From: Bacteroidales bacterium
GTDB taxonomy: Bacteria > Bacteroidota > Bacteroidia > Bacteroidales > UBA1556
Direction: 5' to 3'
DNA length: 64,000 nucleotides
Assembly: GCA_023146135.1 (NCBI GenBank)
Contig: JAGLCR010000029.1
Coordinates: forward strand, 1-64,000
Shown here: positions 35,958 through 52,944 of the stretch, piece by piece
Numbering within the stretch: position 1 is the stretch's first letter
How the letters are laid out: each line of letters begins with the position of its first letter
The notes under the pieces: generated by a model
The model's database searches: none
What the model saw: the letters and a program-made list of their open reading frames with translations, nothing else
Told to the model about the DNA's origin: nothing
Made by a program: the position numbers and the translations under genes

Positions 35958-36176
35958 CTATTTGTATCTAAATGTAATACGTCCTTTGGTTAAATCATAA
36001 GGAGAAATTTCTAGCTTCACCTTGTCGCCAGGAAGAATTCGAATATAATGCATTCTCATCTTTCCTGAAATATGAGCAACTAACTGATGTCCATTTTCCA
36101 ATTCAACACGAAACATAGCATTACCTAATGATTCTAATACTGTTCCGTCTTGTTCAATTGACTTTTGCTTAGCCAT
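35958..36176 (-). CDS. infA: Translation initiation factor IF-1
   Basis: The 72 aa OB-fold protein binds the ribosomal A site during initiation. [26 protein letters not shown] and the [33 protein letters not shown] core are canonical in sequence and length. It starts 1 nt after the map stop codon, so coupled translation is likely, and precedes rpmJ by 24 nt. Confidence 0.97.
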
Positions 36177-36177
36177 A

Positions 36178-36963
36178 TTAACGTATATTTATATTTTGTT
36201 TTAATACTTCTTCAATAAATTCATATGTTGATAAAAACTCAACTTTGCCTCTTTTTACCACAACAGTGTGTTCAAAATGAGCAGATGCTTTGCTATCACG
36301 AGTTCTGATAGTCCAACCATCATTATCCTGCATTACATCTTTAGTTCCCATATTAATCATTGGCTCAATACATAAAACTAGATTTTCAGCTAGTTTCTTT
36401 CCTGTACCCTTTCTACCATAATTAAATACCTCTGGTCGCTCATGCAAATTCTTTCCAATTCCATGTCCCACTAAATCGCGAACTACAGAATATCCAAAAG
36501 ATTCAACATGTGATTGAATAGCTGACCCTATATCTCCAATACGTTTACCAAAAATAGCTTGTTCACATCCAAGGTAAACAGATTCTTTAGTAATCTTTTG
36601 AAGCTTAAGAGTTGCATCATCAGTTTCACCAACAGCAAATGAATAAGCATAATCACCGTAATACCCATTCATAAAGGTACCACAATCGACTGACACTAAA
36701 TCGCCATCCTTCAACTCACGATTTCCGGGAATGCCATGAACAACCTCATCGGCAACAGAAATACATAATGTGGCTGGAAAGCCACCATATCCCTTAAAGC
36801 CAGGTTTGGCACCATTATCAAGGATAAACTCTTCAGCGATTTTATCCATTTCAATGGTTTTGAGCCCCGTACGCATAATCTTTGCGACTTCGGCTAAAGT
36901 TTTTCCAACAAGTAAAGAACTTTGTCTTAATAATTCAATTTCTTCTGCAGTTTTAACAATCAT
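36178..36963 (-). CDS. map: Methionine aminopeptidase type I
   Basis: The 261 aa enzyme removes the initiator Met. The pita-bread metal ligands are visible in context: [20 protein letters not shown] (two Asp), [18 protein letters not shown] (His), [10 protein letters not shown] (Glu) and [11 protein letters not shown] (Glu). No N-terminal zinc-finger extension, so class Ia. It is embedded in the spc operon between secY (13 nt) and infA (1 nt); adk is absent from this position. Confidence 0.96.
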
Positions 36964-36976
36964 AATATTGTTTTTA

Positions 36977-38383
36977 CTACATACCGCTGCCTAATCCAGC
37001 TGACTGATACATATTAGACTGACGACCTTTGATACGACCTGATTTTGTTAAACCATCATAATGACGCATCAATAAGTGACTTTCAATCTGCTGTAGCGTA
37101 TCAAGAACCACACCCACTAAAATAAGTAGTGACGTTCCGCCAAAGAACTGAGCGAATTGTTGGTTGATACCAGCTTGTGATACAAATGCAGGCATAATAG
37201 CAACAAAGGCTAAAAATATAGAACCTGGTAGGGTAACACGAGATAAAATGGTATCAAGAAATTCGGCTGTTCGTTTTCCAGGCTTAATACCAGGAATAAA
37301 ACCACCATTCTTCTTCAAATCCTCAGCAATCTGATTAGGATTAATTGTAATCGCTGTATAAAAATAGGTAAAGGCAACAATCATCAAACCAAAGGTAGCA
37401 TTATACCAAAATCCGTTAAAGTCGGAAAAGGCAGCAGCAAACCATGATAAACCTTCGCTATCAGATGCAGCATAACCAATTAAAGTTATAGGTAGCATCA
37501 TAATGGCTTGAGCAAAGATGATTGGCATTACTCCAGCAGCATTCACTTTAAGAGGAACATACTGACGTACACCACCATATTGTTTATTTCCAACAACACG
37601 TTTGGCAAATTGAATAGGTACTCTACGTGTACCTTGTACTAACATTATAGTAACAAGGATAACTAGTATTAGGAATACCATTTCGGCCAAAAACATAACC
37701 ATACCTCCAGTTTGTTCAGTAGCTTTTGATACAAATTCAGCAAATAATGCCATCGGAAGTCGAGCAATAATACCAATCATAATGATTATAGAAATACCGT
37801 TTCCAATTCCTTTATCTGTAATTCGCTCACCTAACCACATAATAAACATGGTACCGGCAATTAAAATTGCAACTGATAATGCATAAAAGAAAGTGGGAGA
37901 ATGATCATACAAAGGTACTGTAGATAGTACCTCACCAGAATTAGCAGTATAATACTTACCCAGCGTATGAATCATATTGGCAATATAACCAGGTGCTTGA
38001 AAAGCAACAATAATTACCGTTAATAAACGAGTAATTTGACTGATTTTCTTACGACCACTTTCACCTTCTTTTTGTAGCTTCTGAAAATATGGCACAGCCA
38101 TACCTAAAAGTTGTACAACGATAGAGGCAGTAATATATGGCATAATACCTAATGCAAAAATTGATGCATTGGAAAATGCTCCACCCGAGAACATATTAAT
38201 TAATCCAACCAAACCAGAACTACCTTGAGCTTGCAAAGCTGCCAATCCGCGAGGATCAACACCAGGAAGAACAACATAAGCTCCTAGTCGATAGATTAAA
38301 ATCAACGATAAAGTGAGGATGATACGATTACGTAACTCCTCAATATTCCAGATATTCTTTAATGTCTCTATAAACTTCTTCAT
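36977..38383 (-). CDS. secY: Preprotein translocase subunit SecY
   Basis: The 468 aa channel subunit has ten membrane segments with the plug region after TM1 (GVDPRGLAALQAQG) and the cytoplasmic loops ERITDKGIGNGISIIIMIGI and GIKPGKRTAEFLDTILSRV. It forms the SecYEG channel for export of the many signal-peptide proteins in this window. It lies 6 nt after rplO, the standard spc-operon position. The somewhat larger size than E. coli SecY (443 aa) is spread over loops. Confidence 0.97.
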   Translation of the reverse strand: MKKFIETLKNIWNIEELRNRIILTLSLILIYRLGAYVVLPGVDPRGLAALQAQGSSGLVGLINMFSGGAFSNASIFALGIMPYITASIVVQLLGMAVPYFQKLQKEGESGRKKISQITRLLTVIIVAFQAPGYIANMIHTLGKYYTANSGEVLSTVPLYDHSPTFFYALSVAILIAGTMFIMWLGERITDKGIGNGISIIIMIGIIARLPMALFAEFVSKATEQTGGMVMFLAEMVFLILVILVTIMLVQGTRRVPIQFAKRVVGNKQYGGVRQYVPLKVNAAGVMPIIFAQAIMMLPITLIGYAASDSEGLSWFAAAFSDFNGFWYNATFGLMIVAFTYFYTAITINPNQIAEDLKKNGGFIPGIKPGKRTAEFLDTILSRVTLPGSIFLAFVAIMPAFVSQAGINQQFAQFFGGTSLLILVGVVLDTLQQIESHLLMRHYDGLTKSGRIKGRQSNMYQSAGLGSGM

Positions 38384-38389
38384 CTATGC

Positions 38390-38833
38390 TTATAATTTAG
38401 TAGCAACGCCACCAGCAGCTTCTATAGCTTTCAGGGCTGTTGCAGTAAATGCATGTGCTTTAATTTCTACTTTGGCTTTTAATTCGCCACGACCTAATAT
38501 TTTAATTAAATCGTTTTTACCAGCAAGATTATACTCAATAAGTACTTGTTGATCAATTGAACTAATTCCTTTGTCAGCCAAAGCTTGAATTATGTCAATG
38601 TTAATCCCTTGGTATTCTTTACGGTTAATGTTTTTAAAACCGAATTTAGGAACACGTCGGTATAATGGCATTTGACCACCTTCGAAACCAGCCTTACGAC
38701 TGTATCCTGAACGTGATTTTTGTCCGTTATGTCCACGAGTTGAAGTTCCACCTCTTGTAGAACCTTGTCCCCTACCAATTCTCTTTCGAGTCTTTATTGA
38801 TCCTTTTGCAGGTTTAAGATTACTTAAATCCAT
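38390..38833 (-). CDS. rplO: Ribosomal protein uL15
   Basis: The 147 aa protein has the Gly/Arg-rich N-terminal segment KTRKRIGRGQGSTRGGTSTR that threads into 23S rRNA and the globular C-terminal part ending with AFTATALKAIEAAGG. It is positioned 26 nt after rpmD and 6 nt before secY. Confidence 0.97.
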   Translation of the reverse strand: MDLSNLKPAKGSIKTRKRIGRGQGSTRGGTSTRGHNGQKSRSGYSRKAGFEGGQMPLYRRVPKFGFKNINRKEYQGINIDIIQALADKGISSIDQQVLIEYNLAGKNDLIKILGRGELKAKVEIKAHAFTATALKAIEAAGGVATKL

Positions 38834-38859
38834 TGCTATATCGTTTAAAATATTATATA

Positions 38860-39039
38860 CTAAACTTCTTCTATAGAAAGTAAGTGTTTTACTTTCTCAA
38901 TCATGCCCAACATTTGCGGGCTAGCTTCCACTATACGTTCTTTATGCATTTTCTTAATACCCAATGCAATAAGAGTACGCTTTTGACGAAGTGGTCTATC
39001 AATACCACTTTTAATCTGCTTTATCTTAAGTGTCTTCAT
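38860..39039 (-). CDS. rpmD: Ribosomal protein uL30
   Basis: The 59 aa protein MKTLKIKQIKSGIDRPL... has the conserved GIKKMHKERIVEAS segment and usual L30 length. I start it at the ATG at 39039; an in-frame ATG at 39063 would add eight residues (MPIKIQKT) not typical of L30. It lies 56 nt after rpsE and 26 nt before rplO. Confidence 0.93.
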   Translation of the reverse strand: MKTLKIKQIKSGIDRPLRQKRTLIALGIKKMHKERIVEASPQMLGMIEKVKHLLSIEEV

Positions 39040-39095
39040 TGTCTTCTGTATTTTAATCGGCAAATGTACAATTAATTACATCTACTCAATCAAAT

Positions 39096-39614
39096 TTAAC
39101 CATTAAAAACTTTATCTAAACTAACACCGCGTAACTCAGCAATATAGCGAGGGTCTCTCAATTTACTCAAGGCATCAAATGTCGCCTTTACCACTGAGTG
39201 AGGGTTTGAAGAACCTTTTGACTTAGCCAATACGTCGGTTACACCAACACTCTCCAATACTGCACGCATAGCACCACCAGCAATTACTCCAGTACCATGA
39301 GATGCAGGCTTAATAAAAACCTCAGCTCCACTATATTTACCTGTTTGCTCATGAGGAAGAGTACCTTTATAAATAGGCACTTTGATTAAATGCTTCTTAG
39401 CATCATCAACTCCTTTAGCAATAGCAGAAGTAACCTCTTTTGCTTTTCCTAAACCATACCCTACAATACCAGCCTCATTACCAACTACAACGATGGCAGA
39501 AAAACTAAATGTTCTACCTCCTTTAGTTACTTTGGTAACTCTTTGGATACTAACAAGACGATCTTTATAATCTACCTCACTAGTTTTTATATTATTTCTT
39601 TTATTATCTGCCAT
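39096..39614 (-). CDS. rpsE: Ribosomal protein uS5
   Basis: The 172 aa protein has the N-terminal double-stranded RNA-binding-like domain ([21 protein letters not shown]) and the C-terminal S5 domain ([36 protein letters not shown]). It functions in decoding accuracy at the mRNA entry side. It starts 5 nt after rplR and is followed by 56 nt before rpmD. Confidence 0.97.
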
Positions 39615-39619
39615 AAGTC

Positions 39620-39976
39620 CTAAAATTTAAGTCCACCTTCACGAGCTCCGTCGGCCATAGACTTGATTCTACCATGATAAACATATCCGCTACGGTCGAA
39701 AATCACTGCTTCAACATTAGCTTCTTTAGCCTTTTCGGCTAATAGCATACCAACTAATTTGGCTTGCTCAATTTTTGTGACTGTTTTAGAAGAGATGCTC
39801 TCATCTTGTGATGATGCTGATGCAAGAGTCTTTCCTGCTTCATCATCAATAATCTGAGTATAAATCTGCTTATTACTTCTAAAAACACTCAATCGAGGAC
39901 GAGCGGCTGTTCCGGAAATTTTTCCACGAACACGGCGTCTAATCCTTGATCTTTGATAACTGTTATTCTTCTTCAT
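39620..39976 (-). CDS. rplR: Ribosomal protein uL18
   Basis: The 118 aa 5S rRNA-binding protein has a basic N-terminal tail ([21 protein letters not shown]) and the conserved [22 protein letters not shown] and [24 protein letters not shown] segments. It lies 21 nt after rplF and 5 nt before rpsE. Confidence 0.97.
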
Positions 39977-39997
39977 CGTGCTTTTACTTAAAATTAT

Positions 39998-40552
39998 CTA
40001 ACTAGCAGCTGTTTTACCTGCTTTTCTACGAATTTCTTCACCTTGATAACGAACTCCTTTACCTTTATAAGGCTCTGGTTTACGTAATGAGCGAATCTTT
40101 GCAGCAACCTGACCTACAAGTTGTTTATCATGAGATGTAAGAACCACTAGCGGGTTTTTACCTTTCTCAGTAATAGTTTCAACTTTAACTTCGTCTGGAA
40201 GCTTAAAGAAAATGTGATGAGAAAACCCTAAAGTAAGATCTAAAATTTGTCCTTGATTAGAAGCACGGAAACCCACACCAACTAATTCTTGAACAATTTT
40301 ATATCCTTCAGAAACCCCTTTTACCATATTGGTAATCAAAGCACGATATAAACCATGTTTTGAACGAGTATCTTTTTCCTCATCGCCACGAACAAGAGTT
40401 ATTAAACCCTCTTCTTGCTCAAACTTAATATTAGCGTCAACATGTTGCGTTAACGTTCCTAATTTCCCTTTTACAGTAACCACATTGCCTTTGTCAACAC
40501 TGACTTCGACTCCTGCAGGAATTGTAACGGGTTGTTTTCCTATTCTTGACAT
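39998..40552 (-). CDS. rplF: Ribosomal protein uL6
   Basis: The 184 aa protein consists of two related L6 domains; MSRIGKQPVTIPAGVEVSV opens the first, and the C-terminal signature PEPYKGKGVRYQGEEIRRKAGK closes the second. It sits near the factor-binding site of the 50S subunit. It lies 18 nt after rpsH and 21 nt before rplR. Confidence 0.97.
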   Translation of the reverse strand: MSRIGKQPVTIPAGVEVSVDKGNVVTVKGKLGTLTQHVDANIKFEQEEGLITLVRGDEEKDTRSKHGLYRALITNMVKGVSEGYKIVQELVGVGFRASNQGQILDLTLGFSHHIFFKLPDEVKVETITEKGKNPLVVLTSHDKQLVGQVAAKIRSLRKPEPYKGKGVRYQGEEIRRKAGKTAAS

Positions 40553-40570
40553 AATATCTCTATTTGTATA

Positions 40571-40969
40571 TTAGCTAATATAACATAATACTTCACCACC
40601 TACATTTAATGAACGTGCCTCTTTATCAGAGATAACGCCTCTTGAAGTAGAGATAATAGCTATTCCTAATCCATTCAAAACACGAGGTAAGTCAGATGCG
40701 TTTGTATACTTACGCAAACCTGGTTTACTAACACGTTCAAGACTACGGATAGCCGAAACTTTACTTTCAGGGTGATACTTTAATGCTATTTTAATAGTTT
40801 TCTTGACATCAGCATCTTCGAATTTATAACTCAAGATATACCCTTTATCATAAAGGATCTTTGTTATTTCTTTTCTAAGATTAGAAGAAGGAACCTCCAC
40901 AACACGATGTTTCGCATTGATGGCGTTTCTAACTCTCGTCAAGTAATCTGCTATTTGATCAGTGACCAT
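40571..40969 (-). CDS. rpsH: Ribosomal protein uS8
   Basis: The 132 aa 16S-binding protein has the N-terminal DQIADYLTRVRNAINAKHRVVEVP and the C-terminal signature GLGIAIISTSRGVISDKEARSLNVGGEVLCYI. In E. coli S8 represses the spc operon by binding the rplE region; no equivalent site was looked for beyond inspection. It lies 32 nt after rpsN. Confidence 0.97.
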   Translation of the reverse strand: MVTDQIADYLTRVRNAINAKHRVVEVPSSNLRKEITKILYDKGYILSYKFEDADVKKTIKIALKYHPESKVSAIRSLERVSKPGLRKYTNASDLPRVLNGLGIAIISTSRGVISDKEARSLNVGGEVLCYIS

Positions 40970-41001
40970 CTTTATAAATTTAATAGTTTATTAAATATTT
41001 T

Positions 41002-41271
41002 CTACCAACTTGCTTTTTTAACGCCTGGGATAAGACCAGCTAAAGCCATTTCACGGAAATTAATACGTGATATTCCAAACTGTCGCATATATCCTTTTGG
41101 ACGACCTGACAATTGACAACGATTGTGAAGACGAACTGGTGAAGCGTTTTTAGGAAGCTTCTGAAGCCCTTCATAATCACCAGCTGCTTTTAATGCCGCT
41201 CTTTTAGCTGCATATTTTTCAACCATTTTTTGTCTCTTGCGCTCACGCGCCTTCATTGATTCTTTTGCCAT
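41002..41271 (-). CDS. rpsN: Ribosomal protein uS14 (long, zinc-free form)
   Basis: The 89 aa protein is the long S14 without the two CxxC zinc pairs of the short form; only a single Cys remains in [22 protein letters not shown]. Its ATG overlaps the rplE stop by 1 nt, so translation is coupled. With the cysteine-free bL36 it makes this ribosome largely zinc independent at these sites. Confidence 0.97.
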
Positions 41272-41825
41272 TATTTCTGATTTTTGAATGGTAAACCAAA
41301 TTCTTTTAACAAAGCAAATGCTTCTTCGTCTGTTTTCGCTGTTGTAACGAAAGTCATATTCATTCCTTGAATTTTATTAACTTGATCGATGTTAATTTCA
41401 GGGAAAATTAATTGCTCGGTAATACCGAAAGTATAATTTCCACGTCCATCAAAACCTTTATCGTTAATACCACGGAAATCGCGAATACGAGGAATTGAAA
41501 CAGCTACCAAGCGATCAAGGAATTCGAACATTTGAGAGCGACGAAGTGTAACTCGTGCACCAATGCCCATACCTTTACGCAACTTAAAGTTTGAGATATC
41601 CTTTTTTGAATACGTTTTTACTGCCTTTTGACCAGCAATATTCGTCATTTCAACGATAGCAGCATCTAATAATTTTTTATCAGTAATCGCTTGCCCTACT
41701 CCTTGGTTAATTGCAATTTTAACCAATCTAGGTACCTGCATCACAGATTTATAATTAAACTGCTTCATCAAAGCAGGAACGATTTCGTTCCGATACTTGT
41801 CTCTTAATCTTGGTGAATAGTCCAT
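41271..41825 (-). CDS. rplE: Ribosomal protein uL5
   Basis: The 184 aa 5S rRNA-binding protein has the canonical segments [31 protein letters not shown] and [21 protein letters not shown]. It overlaps rplX and rpsN by 1 nt at each end. A GGAGGT stretch lies 9 nt before its ATG inside the end of rplX, which could act as a Shine-Dalgarno but also simply encodes Gly-Glu-Val. Confidence 0.97.
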
Positions 41826-42142
41826 TACTTAATTACCTCCCCTGACTTTTTGGAATAGCGTTCTACTTTACCTTTTACTTCCTTACGACCTACGCGTGTT
41901 GCATTGCCTTTAGCATCAACAAACATAAGGTTAGAAATATGGATAGCAGCTTCCTGCTTCACAACACCTCCTTGAGGATGTGTAGCATTTGGCTTAGTAT
42001 GCTTTGATACCATGTTAACACCTTCTACTAAAGCACGGCTAGTTTTAGTAATTATTTCAACTACCTTACCCTCCTTGCCTTTGTCAGTTCCAGCGATAAC
42101 CTTTACAGTATCTCCTTTTTTAATTTTTAATTTCGTTCTCAT
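41825..42142 (-). CDS. rplX: Ribosomal protein uL24
   Basis: The 105 aa assembly-initiator protein has the KOW motif [23 protein letters not shown] at residues about 8-30. It lies 24 nt after rplN and shares 1 nt with the start of rplE. Confidence 0.97.
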
Positions 42143-42166
42143 AATATTTTCTTCTATGGATTACGA

Positions 42167-42535
42167 CTATAATACCTCAGGTGCTAAAGAAACTATTTTC
42201 ATAAATTTCTTCTCACGCAATTCGCGGGCAACAGGTCCAAAAATACGAGTACCAGACATTTCACCAGCAGTGTTTAATAAAACTACTGCATTATCGTCGA
42301 AGCGAATATAAGAACCATCAGCACGACGAATTTCTTTTTTAGCTCTAACAACTACGGCTTTAACAACTGTACCTTTTTTAACGTTACCACTAGGAATAGC
42401 ACTTTTAACCGTAACAACTACTTTATCGCCAATTCTGGCATAGCGTTTCTTAGTACCTCCTAATACGCGGATTACCATAACTTCTTTGGCTCCACTATTA
42501 TCTGCAACTAATGCTCTTGATTCTTGTTGTAACAT
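42167..42535 (-). CDS. rplN: Ribosomal protein uL14
   Basis: The 122 aa protein begins [20 protein letters not shown] and ends with the conserved [25 protein letters not shown], canonical in length. It forms part of the inter-subunit interface and the RsfS-binding surface. It starts 2 nt after the rpsQ stop. Confidence 0.97.
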
Positions 42536-42537
42536 AA

Positions 42538-42795
42538 TTATTTAGCTCTTTCAATGATTTCGACTAGTCTCCAACATTTGTTCTTACTAAGTGGACGGGT
42601 TTCCATGATTTTCACGGTATCACCAATTCCTACTTCGTTTTTCTCATCGTGTGCAAGATATTTTGTGGACTTCTTTACGAATTTTCCATACATAGGATGT
42701 TTTACTTTACGCTCAACAATCACACTAATGGATTTATCCATTTTATTACTTACAACAACGCCTATACGTTCTTTTCTTAAATTTCTGCTTTCCAT
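42538..42795 (-). CDS. rpsQ: Ribosomal protein uS17
   Basis: The 85 aa OB-fold 16S-binding protein has [20 protein letters not shown] and the signature [23 protein letters not shown]. It lies 19 nt after rpmC and 2 nt before rplN. Confidence 0.97.
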
Positions 42796-42814
42796 AATAC
42801 TACAGATTTTTTAA

Positions 42815-43018
42815 TTATTTATTAGCAGCTTCTAACTCGCGCTTACGTATTTCAGTACTCAAGCGTGCAATCGTTTTACGATTTTGCTTGATTGTCTGAA
42901 CATTTTCGATTGGAGAAACTGCATGATGCAATTGCGCTTTTGAATAACGCGATGTTTCCTCCTCAAGACGCTCTTTCAAGTCTTCAGTTGATAATTCTCT
43001 AATTTCTTCCTGTTTCAT
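42815..43018 (-). CDS. rpmC: Ribosomal protein uL29
   Basis: The 67 aa helical hairpin protein located at the peptide exit tunnel has KQEEIRELSTEDLKERLEEE and the C-terminal helix QNRKTIARLSTEIRKREL. It lies 45 nt after rplP and 19 nt before rpsQ. Confidence 0.96.
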   Translation of the reverse strand: MKQEEIRELSTEDLKERLEEETSRYSKAQLHHAVSPIENVQTIKQNRKTIARLSTEIRKRELEAANK

Positions 43019-43063
43019 CGTTCTAATTATTTAACAATTCTAGCTTGTAAACTGGTTTATTCT

Positions 43064-43486
43064 CTATGCTTCGTGATAGTCGTTACGAACAATAAACTTC
43101 ACTTTAATTGGCAACTTTTGAGCTGCTAATCGTAAAGCTTCTTTTGCTATGTCGTAAGGTACTCCTTCGGCTTCAAAAATTATTTTTCCAGGTTTACAAC
43201 GTGCAACAAACATTTCTGGCGCTCCCTTACCTTTACCCATACGAACCTCTGCAGGCTTTTTAGTAAGTGGCTTATCGGGAAATACTCGAATCCAAATTTG
43301 ACCTTCACGTTTCATATAACGGGTAACGGCCTGACGTGCGGCTTCAATTTGTCTTCCAGTTAACCAGGTTTCTTCAAGAGCTTTAATTCCAAATGATCCA
43401 AAAGCTAATTGAGCTCCTCGGGTCACATTTCCTTTCATTCTCCCTTTCTGCTGTTTTCTGAATTTTGTTTTCTTTGGCTGTAACAT
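43064..43486 (-). CDS. rplP: Ribosomal protein uL16
   Basis: The 140 aa protein near the A-site tRNA elbow has [16 protein letters not shown], the signature [18 protein letters not shown] and [20 protein letters not shown], and the [12 protein letters not shown]-terminal strand. It lies 26 nt after rpsC. Confidence 0.97.
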
Positions 43487-43512
43487 TATTCCAAACTTTT
43501 TAAATTCTTAAC

Positions 43513-44217
43513 CTAACGATTTCTTCTTTGTGGACGCTGTGGTCTTTTTGATCTCTTGGTGTCTAATTGGGCACCGATTGAAAAATCGCGCTTTCCATAA
43601 ACTTCACCTTTGAAAATCCAAACCTTCACTCCCAAACGACCATATGTAGTATGCGCTTCAACTAAAGCATAGTCGATATCAGCACGAATTGTATGCAAAG
43701 GGATACGACCTTCTTTATACATTTCACTACGTGCCATTTCGGCACCACCTACACGGCCAGAAATCAAAATCTTGATTCCTTGTGCACCCACTCTCATGGT
43801 AGAAGCTATTGAAGTTTTAACGGCACGTCGATACGAAACGCGGCCCTCAATTTGCTTTGCAACTGATTGAGCTACTAAATAAGCATCAATCTCTGGTCTC
43901 TTGATTTCTGATATATTAATCTGGATTTCTTTTCCAGTTAATTTCTTTAACTCTTCTTTAAGCTTGTCAACTTCCGAACCCTGCTTTCCGATAATAATAC
44001 CTGGACGAGCAGTATTGATGGTTACGGTAACTAGCTTTAAAGTACGTTCAATAAATATTTTTGAAACGCTAGCTTTTGCAAGACGAATGTATAAATACTT
44101 ACGAATTTTATCGTCTTCGATAAGTTTCTCGTCGAATTTTTTTCCTCCGAACCAGTTAGAATCCCATCCTTTGATGACTCCTAAACGAAAACCTATTGGA
44201 TTTACTTTTTGACCCAT
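43513..44217 (-). CDS. rpsC: Ribosomal protein uS3
   Basis: The 234 aa protein has an N-terminal type-II KH domain (residues about 38-107) with the GxxG-type loop [14 protein letters not shown] and the C-terminal S3 domain ([32 protein letters not shown]). It forms part of the mRNA entry pore. A Lys/Arg-rich C-terminal tail ends the protein. It lies 10 nt after rplV. Confidence 0.97.
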
Positions 44218-44227
44218 TGTCTTAACT

Positions 44228-44650
44228 TTAATTATTTGTAACTTCGGAGTTAACCTCTACTCTACTACCGAGATATAATGTAACGTGATTCGAACGCTTA
44301 CGAATACGGTGAGCACGACCTTGAGGTGCTGTACGAATTCGTTTAAGCTGACGAGCCGAGTCAACAAAAATATCCTTAATATATAATTGTGCTTCTTCCA
44401 TACGTGCACCTTCGTTTTTGGCTTCCCAATTCGCGATGGCACTAAGAAGTAACTTATACAAACGATTACTGGCTTCTTTTGGCGAATGCTTAAGCATCGC
44501 TAAAGCGTTCTCGATATCTATACCGCGAACCATGTCAGCAACGATTCTCATCTTACGAGGAGAAGTAGGAACGTCATTCAACTTAGCAAAGTAAGTTGTC
44601 TTTTTCGCCTCCTTCATAGCTTCTGCTCTATTATGTTTTCTAACTCCCAT
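44228..44650 (-). CDS. rplV: Ribosomal protein uL22
   Basis: The 140 aa tunnel-wall protein has the signature [18 protein letters not shown] and a C-terminal extended hairpin ([28 protein letters not shown]) that reaches the exit tunnel and carries macrolide-relevant residues. It lies 13 nt after rpsS. Confidence 0.97.
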
Positions 44651-44663
44651 TTCTTATCGTATT

Positions 44664-44942
44664 TTATTTCTTGCCTTTATTTTTACTACCAGCATGGCCA
44701 CGGAACGAACGTGTTGGAGCAAATTCCCCCAATTTGTGACCTACCATGTTTTCAGTTACATAAACAGGAATAAATTTATTTCCATTATGAACTGCAATAG
44801 TTAACCCTACAAAGTCAGGAGATATCATTGAAGCACGCGACCAAGTCTTAATGGTTGCTTTCTTTCCTGAAGCTTGAGTTGCATCTACTTTGCGCTCGAG
44901 CTTGTAGTGAATATATGGACCTTTTTTCAGTGAACGACTCAT
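44664..44942 (-). CDS. rpsS: Ribosomal protein uS19
   Basis: The 92 aa head protein has [19 protein letters not shown] and the signature [26 protein letters not shown]. It lies 17 nt after rplB and 13 nt before rplV. Confidence 0.97.
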
Positions 44943-44959
44943 ATCTTATCTATTTACTA

Positions 44960-45784
44960 TTATTTCTTTCTTCTTTCAATAATGTGCTTGCTCGAATCCT
45001 TAGTCTTGCTACGTGTACGGAATCCTTTTGCAGGAATACCGTTACGAGAACGTGGGTGACCACCTGTTGCACGACCTTCTCCACCACCCATTGGGTGATC
45101 AACTGGGTTCATGTTAACTGGATTAGTTCGAGGACGACGTCCTAACCAACGAGAGCGACCAGCTTTTCCTGAGCGTTCTAAACTATGATCTGGATTGGAT
45201 ACCATACCAATTGTTGCTTTACAAGTTTGAAGAATCATACGAGTCTCGCCTGAAGGCATTTTAACAATTGCATACTTTCCTTCACGTGTCATAAGCTGTG
45301 CATAAGATCCTGCACTACGTGCCATCTTTGCTCCCTGACCAGGACGCAATTCAATATTATGAATTATCGTTCCGAAAGGAATTTCACTTAAAAACATTGC
45401 GTTACCTACTTCAGGAGCTATACCTTTACCCGACATTACTTTTTGCCCAACCTTTATACCGTTTGGAGCAACGATGTATGTCTTCACACCATCAGCATAA
45501 GCTAATAATGCGATACGTGCGGTACGATTTGGATCATATTCCACAGTCTTAACTGTTGCAGGAATACCATCACGCTCGCGCTTGAAATCGATTATACGAT
45601 ATTTCTTCTTATGACCACCACCAATATAGCGCATCGTCATTTTACCTTGATTATCTCTACCACCTGATCTCTTCTTAGGAGCCAACAAACTCTTTTCAGG
45701 AGTTGATGTAGTGATTTCGTCAAACGTAGAAGCTACCTTAAAACGTTGACTTGGTGTTGTTGGATTGAATTTCTTTAAAGCCAT
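44960..45784 (-). CDS. rplB: Ribosomal protein uL2
   Basis: The 274 aa protein is close to the peptidyl-transferase centre. The N-terminal [20 protein letters not shown], the RNA-binding [14 protein letters not shown] segment and the C-terminal loop [13 protein letters not shown] are present; this loop reads DHPMGG where many bacteria have DHPHGG. It lies 5 nt after rplW. Confidence 0.97.
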
Positions 45785-45789
45785 GTCTC

Positions 45790-46080
45790 CTAAATATTAC
45801 TATAAAAATCAATACTCTGACCTTCTGCTAACGTAATAATAGCTTTCTTAAAAGCTTTAGTACGTCCGGCTATTTGTCCCGACTTAGTTGCTCTGCTCTT
45901 TGTTTTACCACTATAATTCATAGTGTTAACAGCGGCAACTTCTACGTCGTACAATTCTTCGATCGCTTTCTTAATCTGAACCTTATTTGCCTTATTGTTT
46001 ACAATGAATCCGTAACGATTGAGCTTTTCGCCCATCTCGTTCATCTTCTCTGTAATTATCGGCTTCTGAATGATTACCAT
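45790..46080 (-). CDS. rplW: Ribosomal protein uL23
   Basis: The 96 aa exit-tunnel protein, docking site for trigger factor and SRP, has [20 protein letters not shown] and [20 protein letters not shown]. It lies 35 nt after rplD and 5 nt before rplB. Confidence 0.97.
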
Positions 46081-46115
46081 TTCTGTTCTTCTTTATCGAT
46101 TCAACAATTTGATGT

Positions 46116-46748
46116 TTACAATGATGCAAACATTTCTTCTAATTCTTTTACTGCGCTTTCAACGAAAATAACTCTGTGTGCTTCTAAAAGCTCATAAGTA
46201 TTTACTTTGTATGCTGTAGTAACTTTAGCTCTTTGGATATTCGATGCCGACTTACTGATATTAATATCAACATCTTTAAGAACTAATAATGTTTTCTTTC
46301 CATCCAACTCAAACTTTTTCAAGAAATCAAGATACATTTTTGTTTTTGGCTGATCATAACTGAAATCTTCCAAAATCATCATTTCTTTATCTTGTGCTTT
46401 ATAAGTTAAAGCTGATTTACGAGCTAAACGTTTCACCTTCTTATTCAACTTAAAAGTATAGTTGCGAGGATGAGGACCGAATGCACGAGCACCACCTCTT
46501 AAAATAGGTGACTTAATATCTCCCATACGAGCAGTACCTGTACCCTTTTGACGTTTAATTTTACGTCGGCTACCTGAAAGCTGAGAGCGTTCCTTAGAAC
46601 TATGAGTTCCTTGACGCTGATTTGCACGATATAATTTTACATCGAGATAAATAGCGTGATCGTTAGGCTCAATTCCGAATACAGCATCGTCTAATTTAAT
46701 CTTACGATCTGTTTTTTCTCCTGTTTGTTTATATACTGCTAATTCCAT
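46116..46748 (-). CDS. rplD: Ribosomal protein uL4
   Basis: The 210 aa protein has the long internal loop reaching the exit tunnel ([39 protein letters not shown]). In E. coli it also represses the S10 operon; no S10-type leader was recognised here. The start overlaps the end of rplC by 10 nt. Confidence 0.97.
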
Positions 46749-47362
46749 CTTTCAATAATTACATATGAACCACTAGGACCCGCAATCGAACCCTTAACAA
46801 TAATCAAATTCTTATCTGCAACAACTTTAAGAACTTCAAGGTTAATCATTTTCACACGATTACCACCCATACGACCAGCCATGCGCATTCCTTTGAATAC
46901 ACGTGATGGGTATGAACTTGCTCCAATAGAACCAGGAGCTCTAAGGCGGTTATGCTGTCCGTGAGTTGCATCGTTAACACCCTTAAAGTTATAACGTTTT
47001 ACTACACCCTGAAAACCTTTTCCTTTACTCACACCTACAACGTCAACAAATTCACCTTCAGCAAAAACATTAACCTTAACCTCTTCGCCTAATTGTTTTT
47101 TCTCCTCGAAACGAGAAAATTCAACCAATATGCGTTTTGGTGTAGTGCTTGCTTTTTTGAAGTGACCCATCATCGCTTTTGGAGTATTTTTCTCCTTAGC
47201 TTCGTCATAAGCCAATTGAATAGCTGAATAGCCATCAACTTCTTCAGTTCTTACTTGTGTTACAACACAAGGACCAGCTTCGATTACAGTGCATGGCATA
47301 TTTTTACCAGAGGCATCGAAGATACTAGTCATTCCAACTTTTTTTCCTATTATTCCAGACAT
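46739..47362 (-). CDS. rplC: Ribosomal protein uL3
   Basis: The 207 aa protein reaches the peptidyl-transferase centre with its central loop. The conserved [19 protein letters not shown] and [15 protein letters not shown] segments are present. E. coli carries a methylated Gln in the MAGQMG position, whereas this protein has Arg (MAGRMG), as in many other bacteria. It lies 27 nt after rpsJ and overlaps rplD by 10 nt. Confidence 0.97.
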
Positions 47363-47389
47363 TTCTGTATAATCTTAAACTATTTATAC

Positions 47390-47695
47390 TTAAACCTTGA
47401 TCTCTACTTCTACACCACTTGGGAGCTCTAATTTCATAAGAGCATCAATAGTTTTCGAAGTTGTGCTATAAATATCCAACAAACGCTTATAAGTGTTGTG
47501 CTCAAACTGCTCACGAGCTTTCTTATTTACGAAAGTTGAACGAAGAACAGTATAGATCTTCTTATCAGTTGGTAAAGGAATCGGTCCATTAACAACAGCA
47601 CCTGTAGATTTTACAGTTTTTACGATTTTCTCAGCTGATTTATCAACCAAATTGTAATCGTAAGATTTTAATTTTATTCTTATTTTCTGACTCAT
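47390..47695 (-). CDS. rpsJ: Ribosomal protein uS10
   Basis: The 101 aa protein of the 30S head (NusE in transcription antitermination) has [20 protein letters not shown] and [20 protein letters not shown]. It follows fusA after 11 nt; tuf, which stands here in E. coli-type str operons, is absent. Confidence 0.97.
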
Positions 47696-47706
47696 CTCTA
47701 AATATT

Positions 47707-49788
47707 CTATTTATTGATAATTTCTTCTGCAATTGCACTAGGCACTTCATCATAATGATCAAATGTCATTGTTGAAGTAGCACGTCCTGAGGAAACCGTT
47801 CTTAGAGCGGTAACATAACCAAACATATTTGAAAGTGGAACCATTGCTTTGATAACTTGAGTACCATCTTTGGCTTCAACACCTTCGATCATGCCACGAC
47901 GTTTATTCAAGTCACCTATTACATCACCCATATACTCGTCAGGAGTAACAACTTCTACCTTCATGATAGGCTCAAGTAATGCTTTCTTAACTTTTGCTAA
48001 TGCGTGACGGAATCCCATTTTTGCAGCAAGCTCAAATGATAATTGATCCGAATCAACTGCGTGGAAAGACCCGTCGAATAAACGAACACTTAAACTATCC
48101 ATTTCATAACCCGCAAGTGGGCCGTTAAGCATAGCCATTTCGAAACCTTTCTTCACTGAAGGAACAAATTCTTTAGGGATATTACCGCCCTTAATTTGAT
48201 CAGTAAATTGCAAACCTTCAGCTCCATCCTCAGCAGGACCGATTTCGAACTGAATATCGGCAAATTTACCACGTCCACCCGACTGCTTTTTATAAACTTC
48301 GCGATGGTTAGTACTTCCAAGAATTGATTCTTTATAAGCAACCTGTGGTTGTCCTTGATTACATTCTACTTTGAATTCACGCTTCAAACGATCAATTAGA
48401 ATGTCAAGGTGAAGCTCACCCATTCCACTAATGATTGTTTGTCCAGTTTCTTCATCAGAACGAACCTTAAACGTAGGATCTTCCTCAGCTAATTTAGCTA
48501 AAGCGATACCCATTTTATCGATATCTTTTTGAGTTCTTGGCTCCACTGCAATACTGATAACAGGATCAGGGAAATCCATAGACTCTAAAATAATTACACT
48601 ATCTTGTTGACAAAGAGTATCACCAGTACGTATGGTTTTGAAACCAACAGCTGCACCAATATCTCCAGCCTCAATTTTATCAAGAGGATTCTGTTTGTTA
48701 GCGTGCATTTGCATTACACGAGAGATACGCTCTTTTTTACCAGTACTTGCATTATAAACATAAGAACCAGCTTCAAGTGTACCTGAATAAACTCGGAAGA
48801 AAGCAATACGACCTACAAATGGGTCAGTAGCAATCTTAAATGCCAATGCTGCAAATGGAGCTTTAGGATCCACATCGCGAGTTTCTTCTTTTTGAGTATC
48901 AGGATTAATTCCAGTAACCGCATCGATATCCAATGGGCTAGGAAGGAATTCAATCACAGCATCCAATAACATCTGAACACCTTTATTCTTAAAGGCCGAA
49001 CCACACATTACTGGAGTAATTTTCATTTCAATAGTAGCTTTACGTATTGCGGCTAACATTTCGTCCTCTGTAATTGAGTCAGGATCCTCCATGTATTTTT
49101 CCAAAAGCTCATCACTTTCTTCAGCAACACCTTCTACTAATTTCATACGGTATGTAGCAACCGTTTCTAATAAATCTTCAGGAATAGGAATTTCATTCAC
49201 GTTAACGCCATGATCATCCTCATCCCAAACATAAGCTTTATTAGTAATCAAATCCACAACACCACGAAAATGCTCTTCAGCTCCGATTGGAACTTGCAAT
49301 GGTACAGGATTTGCTTTCAATCGCTCGCGAATTTGCTCAATAACTGAAAAGAAGTCAGCTCCCGAACGGTCCATTTTATTAACGAAACTCAAACGAGGAA
49401 CTTTATACTTTGTAGCCTGACGCCAAACGGTTTCAGACTGAGGCTCGACACCACCAACAGCACAGAATAATGCAACAGCACCATCTAATACGCGAAGTGA
49501 ACGCTCTACCTCAACAGTAAAGTCAACGTGACCCGGAGTATCAATAATATTAATCTTATGATCAGTATCTTGATATTTCCAAAATACAGTAGTTGCAGCA
49601 GAGGTAATTGTTATACCACGCTCTTGCTCCTGAACCATCCAGTCCATGGTTGCAGCGCCATCATGCACCTCACCAATTTTATAACTTTTACCAGTATAAT
49701 AAAGGACACGCTCGGTGAGGGTAGTTTTACCCGCATCGATATGCGCCATAATTCCTATATTTCTAGTATTCTCTAATTTACTTGCCAT
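47707..49788 (-). CDS. fusA: Elongation factor G
   Basis: The 693 aa GTPase drives translocation. G1 AHIDAGKTT, switch-[20 protein letters not shown] and NKMDR are intact, followed by the EF-G domains II-V ([28 protein letters not shown]). Position in the str operon marks it as the main EF-G rather than an EF-G2 paralogue. AGGAG lies 8 nt before its ATG, one of few SD-like sequences in the window. It lies 22 nt after rpsG and 11 nt before rpsJ. Confidence 0.97.
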
Positions 49789-49810
49789 TATTCTTTCTCC
49801 TAGCTATTAT

Positions 49811-50281
49811 TTAAAATCTAAAGTGAGAGAATGCTTTGTTGGCCTCAGCCATACGATGCGTATCTTCTTTCTTCTTAAAAGCAGTTCCTTCTTCTTTAAA
49901 TGCTGACATAATCTCACCGGCTAATTTCTGAGCCATTGATTTTTCGTGACGCTTACGAGCAGCACTTATCAAAGCCTTGATACCGATAGATTGTTTACGT
50001 GAAGGATAAATTTCTGATGGAATCTGGAAAGTAGCACCACCAATACGACGACTCTTTACTTCAACAGCAGGAGTAACGTTTGTCAACGCTTTCTTAAACA
50101 CATCCACAGGATTTTCTTCTTTAAAACGCTCGGTAACAATATCCATAGCACCATAAAAAATATCGTAAGAAGTATTCTTCTTACCACCCATCATCATATT
50201 ATTCACGAACTTAGTTACCAACGTATCGTTGAACTTTGGATCGGGAAGTATAATTCTCTTCTTTGGCTTTTTTCTTCTCAT
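49811..50281 (-). CDS. rpsG: Ribosomal protein uS7
   Basis: The 156 aa head-organising 16S-binding protein has [22 protein letters not shown] and the signature region [20 protein letters not shown]. It lies 31 nt after rpsL and 22 nt before fusA. Confidence 0.97.
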
Positions 50282-50312
50282 CTTACACTAATTATAAACG
50301 TGTGTTAAAATC

Positions 50313-50690
50313 TTATTTCTTCTTTGGTCGCTTAGTACCATACTTTGAACGACGTTGCGTACGTCCATCCACTCCTAAAGTATCCAATGCGCCACGTACA
50401 ATGTGGTAACGTACGCCTGGAAGGTCTTTTACTCTACCACCACGTATAAGCACGATTGAGTGCTCTTGAAGGTTGTGACCTTCACCTGGGATATAAGCAT
50501 TCACCTCTTTACCATTAGTCAAACGCACACGCGCTACTTTACGCATTGCTGAGTTTGGCTTCTTTGGTGTAGTTGTGTAAACACGCACACATACTCCCCG
50601 GCGTTGTGGACAAGAGTCCAATGCTGGAGAATTACTCTTTTCGGTCGATTTTTTACGACCTTTTCTGATTAACTGTTGTATCGTTGGCAT
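50313..50690 (-). CDS. rpsL: Ribosomal protein uS12
   Basis: The 125 aa decoding-centre protein is the first gene of the superoperon. The streptomycin-relevant lysines are present in wild-type form in [16 protein letters not shown] and [13 protein letters not shown]; the Asp in KDLPG is the residue methylthiolated in some bacteria. A promoter with ideal spacing lies at 50762-50792, giving a leader of about 65 nt. Confidence 0.97.
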
Positions 50691-50743
50691 AATTTAAACT
50701 AAATTACTTGCTTTTAACTAAGTCAATATTATTAATAAATATT

Positions 50744-50759
50744 CCCCTCTAAAACGGGG
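50744..50759 (-). promoter_or_regulatory. Small GC hairpin at the 5' end of the rpsL leader
   Basis: CCCC/GGGG closes an 8-nt loop right at the expected transcript 5' end of the rpsL promoter, in an otherwise AT-rich leader. It may protect the 5' end or have a regulatory role; nothing more can be said. Confidence 0.4.
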
Positions 50760-50761
50760 CT

Positions 50762-50792
50762 GCAAAAGTACAATAAATAATGTACTAATCAA
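50762..50792 (-). promoter_or_regulatory. Promoter of the rpsL-rplQ superoperon
   Basis: On minus, TTG (50792-50790), a 19-nt spacer and TACTTTTGC (50770-50762) exactly fit the Bacteroidota -33/-7 consensus. Confidence 0.8.
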
Positions 50793-50892
50793 GCTTTTAG
50801 AAATTTAAAGTTTTAAGACCTTAAATAACTGACTTAATTTACATTATAAACTGTTTTACAGTTTAATTTAACTTTATTTATATATTCGTTGT

Positions 50893-51049
50893 GAAAAAAT
50901 TGATAGGAAGGATAATCTTCCAGACCCGAAAGAAAGACTTTTCGTCCTATTCTTTCTGAAACCTATAGCGGTCTGCCATTATCAGGTTCCTAGCAAATTT
51001 TTCTTTATTCCCACTAAAACAAGGATTTAACTCCTTTTGCGTCTTAGCG
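50893..51049 (-). ncRNA. Candidate structured small RNA upstream of rpsL (rod-shaped, possibly 6S-like)
   Basis: A consensus promoter (51053-51083) predicts a 5' end near 51047. The transcript can form a 5' hairpin AAGGA/UCCUU (51037-51021), then a long rod: UAGGAA/UUCCUA (50992-50987 with 50909-50904), GAUAAU/AUUAUC (50983-50978 with 50916-50911), CAGACC/GGUCUG (50975-50970 with 50926-50921), an asymmetric bubble, and AGAAAGA/UCUUUCU (50957-50951 with 50937-50931). The rod is followed by six U (50899-50894) preceded upstream by an A-run, that is, an intrinsic terminator. No reading frame of note is present. The rod with a central bubble is reminiscent of 6S RNA, but no family is assigned. 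The remaining gap to rpsL contains the operon promoter. Confidence 0.6.
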
Positions 51050-51052
51050 AGT

Positions 51053-51083
51053 GCAAAGATAGAAATATTTTTTTATTCACAAA
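51053..51083 (-). promoter_or_regulatory. Promoter of the candidate small RNA
   Basis: On minus, TTTG (51083-51080), an 18-nt spacer and TATCTTTGC (51061-51053) fit the -33/-7 consensus. No protein start codon follows within a normal distance. Confidence 0.7.
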
Positions 51084-51243: not shown

Positions 51244-52944
51244 TTAATAAACTGCCAGCTTCCCCATATGCACTTTATTACCAAAATACACCTTATATAT
51301 ATAGATACCTGCGCTAACACCCTTAATTGACAAACTTGCATTACTTGCAACCAATCTGTTTAAGACAAGTCTTCCCGTCATATCATATAAGCGTAAATCA
51401 GCTTTTTGCTTCGAATCATCGTATTGAATAATAACATAGTCATTTGTAGGATTTGGAAATACTTTAAAAGAATTATCCGATGGTGAAACATCCGCACTTC
51501 CCGTATCTTTAACTGAGTAATAATACTTAAGCTCATACCCAAGCTCGCGAATAGTAGTATCTTCATTTAGATAAAATGATCCTTCATAAATCAATTTATA
51601 ATCAGTGGGCTTCTTTACAAAAATAAACGAGGGGATAACTTGTGTATTTGAAACTTGGGAATCTGTTGAATAAGAATCCTTAAAATATGATTTATATACA
51701 TTATTTATATGTCTACTATGTATTGCGGCCGAGTCATTGGCATTTACAATATAGTCTATTCTAGAGGCTCCATAAATATAATATTTGTTATTATAGTCAT
51801 CCCATATATACAATTCATTCTGATGTTCTCGTTGTCGTGAATCGTAAACAAGGTCTTCTCTAGATTCTTTAATCCAGTTTTGATTGGCATCACCCCAATG
51901 TTGCTGTTCAATCATAGTTGGCTTCCCATAAGGAGTCATTTCATACTTCACCAAACGCTCTGCCTTCCACGAACCGTAATAATTTGAATAAATAGTCAAT
52001 GAATCAAAACCTTGATAATTCTTATGGTAATCAACCTTGTAATTATAGCGCCATTTATTATAAACTGTACTCCAGTTTGACTGAATCGCTTTTACTAAAA
52101 CATCTGCAGAATTGTATAAATAGTCCGCTTTTACATCATTAATATAACTACTTGCATCTCGGTCATACTTAAACCTTTCTTGAAATATTAAACGATCTTG
52201 GGAATCAAATTTAAGGGTGGTAGAATCAGATGGTATCCATACTTCATTCATACCATAAAATCTTGATTCCAATATAAAGTTATCAGGGTAATAGTATGCA
52301 AATTTCGACCTTTTATAACTATAATTATTTACAGAAGTTCCTTCACTATATTCATAAAGAGTTATTCTACCTTTACTATCATAATCGTAGATATGTGAAT
52401 CATAATTTGTCCATTTACGCAATGAATTACTCCAAACACGAACTTTTACTTTAGCAAATAAATTTCTAGCATTATATTCAAATTCAGTTACAGCACCAGG
52501 ACGCCATATAAGAGCTACACTATCAAATATCTCCTCTACAATCTTAACACAGTTCAACTGTCCATTATAATAAAAAAGCGATCGTTTATGGCTAGCAGTA
52601 TTAACATAATGAATACTATCTAGTATATGCATAGTAATTATTTTAGAGTTAGCACCCAGCCTAACAGCGCTTTTAATGCTTTGTGGATTTGTAAAATGTG
52701 TTAGGCCATTCGTTTTTCTTTTATTAGGAATACCAAATAATTTATCAAAAACTAATACTCTTGCATTAATTTCATTATCAGTCTTTGAGATGAAAGTAAC
52801 TTTATAATCGAAATTGATTTGATAAAACCTATTTATTTCGGATTCGATACCAGAACGAGTATAACGCTCATCCACCTTAGTGGATTGAGCACTACTATAA
52901 TTCACAATAAAAGCAATAATCGATAGAAAAAATAGTCTTTTCAT
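51244..52944 (-). CDS. Secreted protein with type IX secretion sorting domain
   Basis: The 566 aa product has a signal peptide (residues 1-19, ending SSAQ) and a C-terminal Por secretion tail (about 493-566): VFPNPTNDYVIIQYDD, LYDMTGRLVLN, SIKGVSAGIYIYKV and the closing KLAVY, typical of type A T9SS sorting domains. The middle (about 120-430) contains repeated YDS/FDSQDR-type units resembling YD-like repeats (YDYDSKGRITLYEYSEG, LKFDSQDRLIFQER). No catalytic domain was recognised, so the role at the cell surface is unknown. It shares no operon. Confidence 0.85.
   Translation of the reverse strand: MKRLFFLSIIAFIVNYSSAQSTKVDERYTRSGIESEINRFYQINFDYKVTFISKTDNEINARVLVFDKLFGIPNKRKTNGLTHFTNPQSIKSAVRLGANSKIITMHILDSIHYVNTASHKRSLFYYNGQLNCVKIVEEIFDSVALIWRPGAVTEFEYNARNLFAKVKVRVWSNSLRKWTNYDSHIYDYDSKGRITLYEYSEGTSVNNYSYKRSKFAYYYPDNFILESRFYGMNEVWIPSDSTTLKFDSQDRLIFQERFKYDRDASSYINDVKADYLYNSADVLVKAIQSNWSTVYNKWRYNYKVDYHKNYQGFDSLTIYSNYYGSWKAERLVKYEMTPYGKPTMIEQQHWGDANQNWIKESREDLVYDSRQREHQNELYIWDDYNNKYYIYGASRIDYIVNANDSAAIHSRHINNVYKSYFKDSYSTDSQVSNTQVIPSFIFVKKPTDYKLIYEGSFYLNEDTTIRELGYELKYYYSVKDTGSADVSPSDNSFKVFPNPTNDYVIIQYDDSKQKADLRLYDMTGRLVLNRLVASNASLSIKGVSAGIYIYKVYFGNKVHMGKLAVY

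Follow-up and report, generated by a model that had tools for sequence, protein, structure and literature searches.

A pseudoknot-forming RNA upstream of rpsL in Bacteroidales, most likely a new ribosomal leader

We describe a structured RNA encoded on the minus strand of the window (the whole 64 000-nt stretch of Bacteroidales DNA that was analysed), between a 566-aa ORF (51244-52944) and rpsL (50313-50690), which matches no Rfam family and is most likely a new ribosomal leader of Bacteroidales. The RNA has a conserved, covarying structure, is restricted to one order, occurs once per genome and holds a fixed place ahead of the operon. With a probability of roughly 0.7, we regard it as a cis-acting leader at the 5' end of the str–S10–spc mega-operon transcript, through which a protein of the S10 part would exert feedback; we infer its ligand, direction of control and mechanism from comparative sequence data, from which it most likely works as a switch that would keep ribosomal-protein production balanced. 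Two of the features by which r-protein leaders are recognized were found, a consistent same-strand location ahead of r-protein genes and a structure backed by covariation. Most ribosomal proteins of this lineage are encoded in a single long operon that begins with rpsL. With a well-defined conserved RNA and only a few candidate protein partners, its control becomes directly testable.

The RNA is preceded by a Bacteroidota-type promoter (51054..51083, minus strand; TTTG at 51083-51080, an 18-nt spacer and TATCTTTG at 51061-51054), whose position predicts a transcript start near 51047-51050. The 566-aa ORF has its end facing the RNA, and its product carries a C-terminal sorting-type tail. The conserved core of the leader (50893..51004, minus strand) scores 97.5 bits with our covariance model R1 and 81.8 bits with model R2, both of which include the window's sequence. 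A second promoter, read from the sequence as CTTG-N19-TACTTTTG, lies between the RNA and rpsL (50763..50793, minus strand), so that a short separate transcript is possible in the window. By ORF translation, rpsL (S12; 50313..50690, minus strand) is the first gene of a run ordered rpsL-rpsG-fusA-rpsJ-rplC-rplD-rplW-rplB-...-secY-map-infA. This single same-strand run, from rpsL via rpsG, fusA and the S10 and spc genes to infA, occupies 35958-50690 on the minus strand and is probably the unit under leader control. Within its structured part, the window's leader opens no reading frame of more than 10 aa; a peptide attenuator is thus disfavoured, and a leader peptide was rejected for want of a suitable ORF.

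The 166-nt RNA folds at -50.9 kcal/mol, compared with -34.2 +/- 3.6 kcal/mol for shuffled sequences (z = -4.6), and 0 of 200 dinucleotide shuffles were as stable. The earlier note, made from the window's sequence, had described a promoter, a rod of nested helices of 6, 6, 6 and 7 bp and a six-U end, all of which are present in the sequence as described; comparison with relatives alters the picture of the rod. The element was recovered by nucleotide search of 60 relatives in nine of the ten other genomes of the genus, where the blocks GGAACCUGA and AUAGGUU are invariant, the distance from GGAACCUGA to the rpsL start codon is about 250–300 nt, and a TTTGCA promoter element stands at the same place in all nine members aligned. 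Within the genus CAGACC:GGUCUG and the apical hairpin covary. Three of the rod's four helices are kept in relatives: UAGG:CCUA (basal helix P1), CAGACC:GGUCUG (P2) and the hairpin at the apex (P3). The remaining one, GAUAAU:AUUAUC, is confined to the window's genome, GAUAA being near-invariant and its partner strand not. Moreover, the most conserved helix of all, GGAACCU:AGGUUUC (P_B), had been missed, as it crosses P2 and so forms a pseudoknot. The 5' hairpin AAGGA/UCCUU (P0; 51011..51050, minus strand), which had been offered as a distinguishing mark, is kept in the genus as a hairpin but not in its sequence.

Because MAFFT alone misaligned the most divergent members of the genus, a model-based alignment was used. 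Over 89 sequences the core consensus reads RAACCU-GAYAA-n4-AGRC-RNUAU-AGGUUYC, followed by the variable hairpin P3, GYCU and the closing strand of P1, at whose end a U-rich tract is often found. P1, P2 (AGRC:GYCU) and P3 form a nested set, and P_B (RAACCU:AGGUUY) crosses P2 to give an H-type pseudoknot. In the window, all on the minus strand, the 5' strand of P1, AUUUGCUAGG (50989..50998), covaries with 50900-50907, its inner pairs being 89-91 % paired; the 5' strand of P_B, GGAACCU (50984..50990), has its first two bases in common with P1; the P2 strand CAGACC (50970..50975) pairs with GGUCUG (50921..50926); the 3' strand of P_B, AGGUUUC (50958..50964), comes directly after the conserved UAU; P3 occupies 50928..50956; and the 3' strand of P1, CCUAUCAA, runs into a terminator-like U6 (50894..50907). 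Over the 30 pairs, 86.7 % of cells are paired, compared with 65.1 % in shuffles and 53 % or less when slid, with changes on both sides in 27 of 30 pairs and a covariation score of 0.500 against 0.174, values that for P1, P2 and P3 lean towards structure, to which the alignment was fitted. P2 is paired in 92.4 % of cells (five of five modelled pairs changing on both sides) and P3, though variable in sequence and length, in 88.9 % (seven of seven). P_B is absent from the model and so played no part in shaping the alignment; it is paired in 98.7 % of cells over 88 distinct sequences, and three of its six pairs show compensatory changes, values reached by 0–4 of 500 shuffles. Its variants comprise AACCU:AGGUU, GACCU:AGGUC (L079) and AGCCU:AGGCU (L191, L198), with G-U intermediates. 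All helices covary, P_B too, if less strongly, and the check on relatives called for in the earlier note came out in favour of a conserved structure. For the two bases 5' of AACCU there are two possible partners, one in P_B and one at the top of P1, each with support from the alignment; a small local competition between P_B and the P1 top is possible, and may have a switching role.

The unpaired GAYAA and UAU are near-invariant. Together with the compact pseudoknot, they recall small-molecule aptamers, and we considered whether the RNA might be a riboswitch or other ligand-sensing leader (of GTP or ppGpp, for example) on a ribosomal operon rather than an r-protein target. In the preQ1-II and similar aptamers one hairpin is inserted into an H-type pseudoknot and another precedes it on the 5' side, which is the architecture found here; the sequence and lineage of preQ1-II are different and it has no Rfam match to the window, so that the comparison concerns only how such an RNA may work. 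The lack of rRNA resemblance points the same way: a 32-column core profile, compared with E. coli 16S and 23S rRNA and two Bacteroidales 23S rRNAs, gave nothing above shuffled background, and a likeness of CCUGAYAA-n10-CUAU to one 23S stretch was not significant. Riboswitches, however, usually recur across a regulon, whereas this RNA was found only ahead of a single r-protein operon, with no convincing instance at other genes, and is present in a single copy in the window's genome; a ligand-sensing role is therefore improbable.

The earlier note had also seen a resemblance to 6S RNA and had named Bacteroidales-1 as a family to scan for. A divergent 6S RNA would account for a long bulged rod of about 155 nt with its own promoter, and 6S-Flavo (RF01685) and Bacteroidales-1 are, like this RNA, promoter-driven and rod-like RNAs of Bacteroidota; neither matches the window. 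In an Rfam scan of the whole window no match reached gathering score, and those gained at a relaxed threshold were chance matches only: the 6S (RF00013) and 6S-Flavo models did not match, nor did Bacteroidales-1 at either threshold. Furthermore, the conserved core is a pseudoknot and not an open bubble, and a 6S-Flavo match below threshold occurs elsewhere in the window's genome (31 bits against a gathering score of 85; G000:C23:15233-15372, L238, 734-873), with the conserved ACUCAAC start and GGGGUUU end, between ORFs that we take to be zapA and rny. This candidate is probably the 6S RNA of this genome, and kinship of the rpsL-linked RNA with 6S is hardly credible. Weak 6S-Flavo matches were also seen in 21 other relatives of 59, and the Rfam model seems to miss Bacteroidales members.

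Among known leaders, rpsL_ricks is a conserved RNA associated with rpsL; its model gave no match in the window. It is an RNA of Rickettsia, named in PMC4683814, and so belongs to another phylum. The S15-Flavobacteria leader (RF03161) reached 19.9 bits against a gathering score of 46.5 at 50719-50770, a stretch that is mostly second promoter and AT-rich 5' UTR. In Bacteroidia and Flavobacteria, ribosomal leaders have been described for L13, S4, S15 and S16 (Eckert and Weinberg, 2020, PMC7247131), and none of the 20 leaders of that study is assigned to S12 or the rpsL/str operon. Like the present RNA, those leaders are structured, steadily upstream of r-protein genes and covarying; the two S4 leaders of this phylum were described as hairpins, whereas this RNA is a pseudoknot. 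A review (PMC10931766) describes control of the str operon only for E. coli and, by similarity, cyanobacteria. The E. coli operon, which also begins with rpsL, is under autogenous control by S7, whose target is the rpsL-rpsG intercistronic region (PMC10931766); unlike that target, the RNA described here precedes the whole operon and leaves rpsG when the operon splits.

Model R1, built from six genus sequences with nested helices only, picked up homologues in other families; model R2, built from 30 sequences and applied at E <= 0.01, gave matches in 82 of 393 Bacteroidales genomes, exactly one in each; these span about 30 families as counted from the table of carriers. A class sample of 395 genomes yielded the window and two matches at E 0.004 and 0.008; these two, outside the order, are unlike the motif, lie apparently in coding sequence and correspond to the number expected by chance. 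Weak secondary matches in single genomes likewise look like coding or AT-rich chance matches. The rpsL loci of named Bacteroides, Parabacteroides, Prevotella, Tannerella, Alistipes and Flavobacterium gave no model match; an over-strict pattern search over the class missed even the window's RNA and is uninformative.

The position ahead of the str operon, to which the earlier note had drawn attention, matters: 80 of the 82 genomes carry the RNA on the coding strand of rpsL, 30-249 nt ahead of that gene, and the remaining two have it ahead of rpsJ and of rplW, respectively. In 77 of 80 homologues a TAnnTTTG element stands no more than 120 nt upstream of the RNA, bearing out the claim of a conserved, structured and promoter-driven RNA. 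Whether it is also free-standing, as had been proposed, is doubtful. A trans-acting small RNA, equipped with a promoter and a terminator of its own and merely adjoining the operon, would fit the upstream promoter, the U-tract end and the second promoter before rpsL, a TAnnTTTG element being present between RNA and rpsL in 53 of 80 cases, the window's genome included; such a promoter would bypass a leader and speaks against our reading. In 27 of 80, however, no promoter was recognized in this interval, and the smallest gaps, of 30–33 nt, leave no room for one, so that there the RNA is probably the 5' leader of the operon mRNA; its place in the rpsL leader is strongly implied for these 27, unless rpsL is transcribed from within the RNA. 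The same-strand link to the operon holds in all 82 genomes while upstream neighbours vary, and the RNA accompanies the S10 part where the operon has come apart. We consider a purely trans-acting RNA unlikely.

A short local intrinsic terminator is predicted at the 3' end of the RNA in the window, and it is plausible that P1 and the U-tract there constitute one. In many homologues the 3' strand of P1 leads into a U-rich tract: T is present in 70-78 % at four positions there compared with about 33 % around, and 41 % against 20 % of 8-nt stretches have at least six T, an enrichment partly built in, as the model itself favours U at this place. Some homologues lack a U-tract, and runs of at least five U showed no significant association with the second promoter (51 % with, 37 % without, p = 0.34).

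Returning to the leader reading, the genus of G044 bears on the identity of the protein. In G157 the order is RNA-rpsL-rpsG-fusA-...-rplC-rplD-rplW-rplB; in G044 it is RNA-rpsJ-rplC-rplD-rplW-rplB-..., and rpsL was not found in that assembly (96 % complete). In G492 the RNA precedes rplW-rplB-rpsS-rplV-rpsC and then an unrelated gene, and a different contig carries rpsL-rpsG-fusA, preceded by a TTTGCA promoter but not by the RNA motif. By eye, the RNAs of G044 and G492 look orthologous in their 5' regions, and the model matches of these two genomes are the weakest of the homologue set. As far as these two draft metagenome-assembled genomes (G492 being 68 % complete) indicate, the RNA of a broken operon remains attached to the S10 part, and not to rpsL-rpsG-fusA, which points to a product of the S10 part as reader rather than S12 or S7. 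All known r-leaders have their partner encoded in the controlled operon (Eckert and Weinberg, PMC7247131); if this applies here, S12, S7, EF-G, S10, L3 and L4 are unlikely, and L23, L2, S19, L22 and S3 remain.

P_B, crossing P2 with P3 inserted, forms an H-type pseudoknot stacked on the basal helix P1, and we suggest that an S10-part protein in excess (candidates L23, L2, S19, L22 and S3) may bind this pseudoknot and thereby lower expression. In the window's genus, binding could favour the form with P1 and the U-tract, so that transcripts from the upstream promoter would end before rpsL, and the proximal promoter would act as a bypass for basal supply; in relatives lacking the U-tract or the second promoter, the protein may act on readthrough or on translation start. 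Bacteroidota do without Shine–Dalgarno pairing (PMC10931766), and the usual blocking of a ribosome-binding site may therefore not apply. A further version, in which a new pseudoknot leader class acts on the whole mega-operon and its bypass by a second promoter in many genera also gives an abundant short RNA that may titrate an S10-segment protein in trans, is rather unlikely.

Finally, the same-genus genome G006 contains a CRISPR array (G006:C41:15500-19500, L247) with the repeat GTCTTAATCCTTGTTTTAGTGGAAAG...TGAGGGAG, which has AATCCTTGTTTTAGTGG in common with the window's 5' hairpin (51030-51006); the 17-mer has no other copy in the window's genome at up to one mismatch, and the likeness was taken as chance. 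In G023 (C213:29456-29918) the same 20-nt stretch recurs regularly about every 73 nt; this is probably a further CRISPR array, whose repeat is related.
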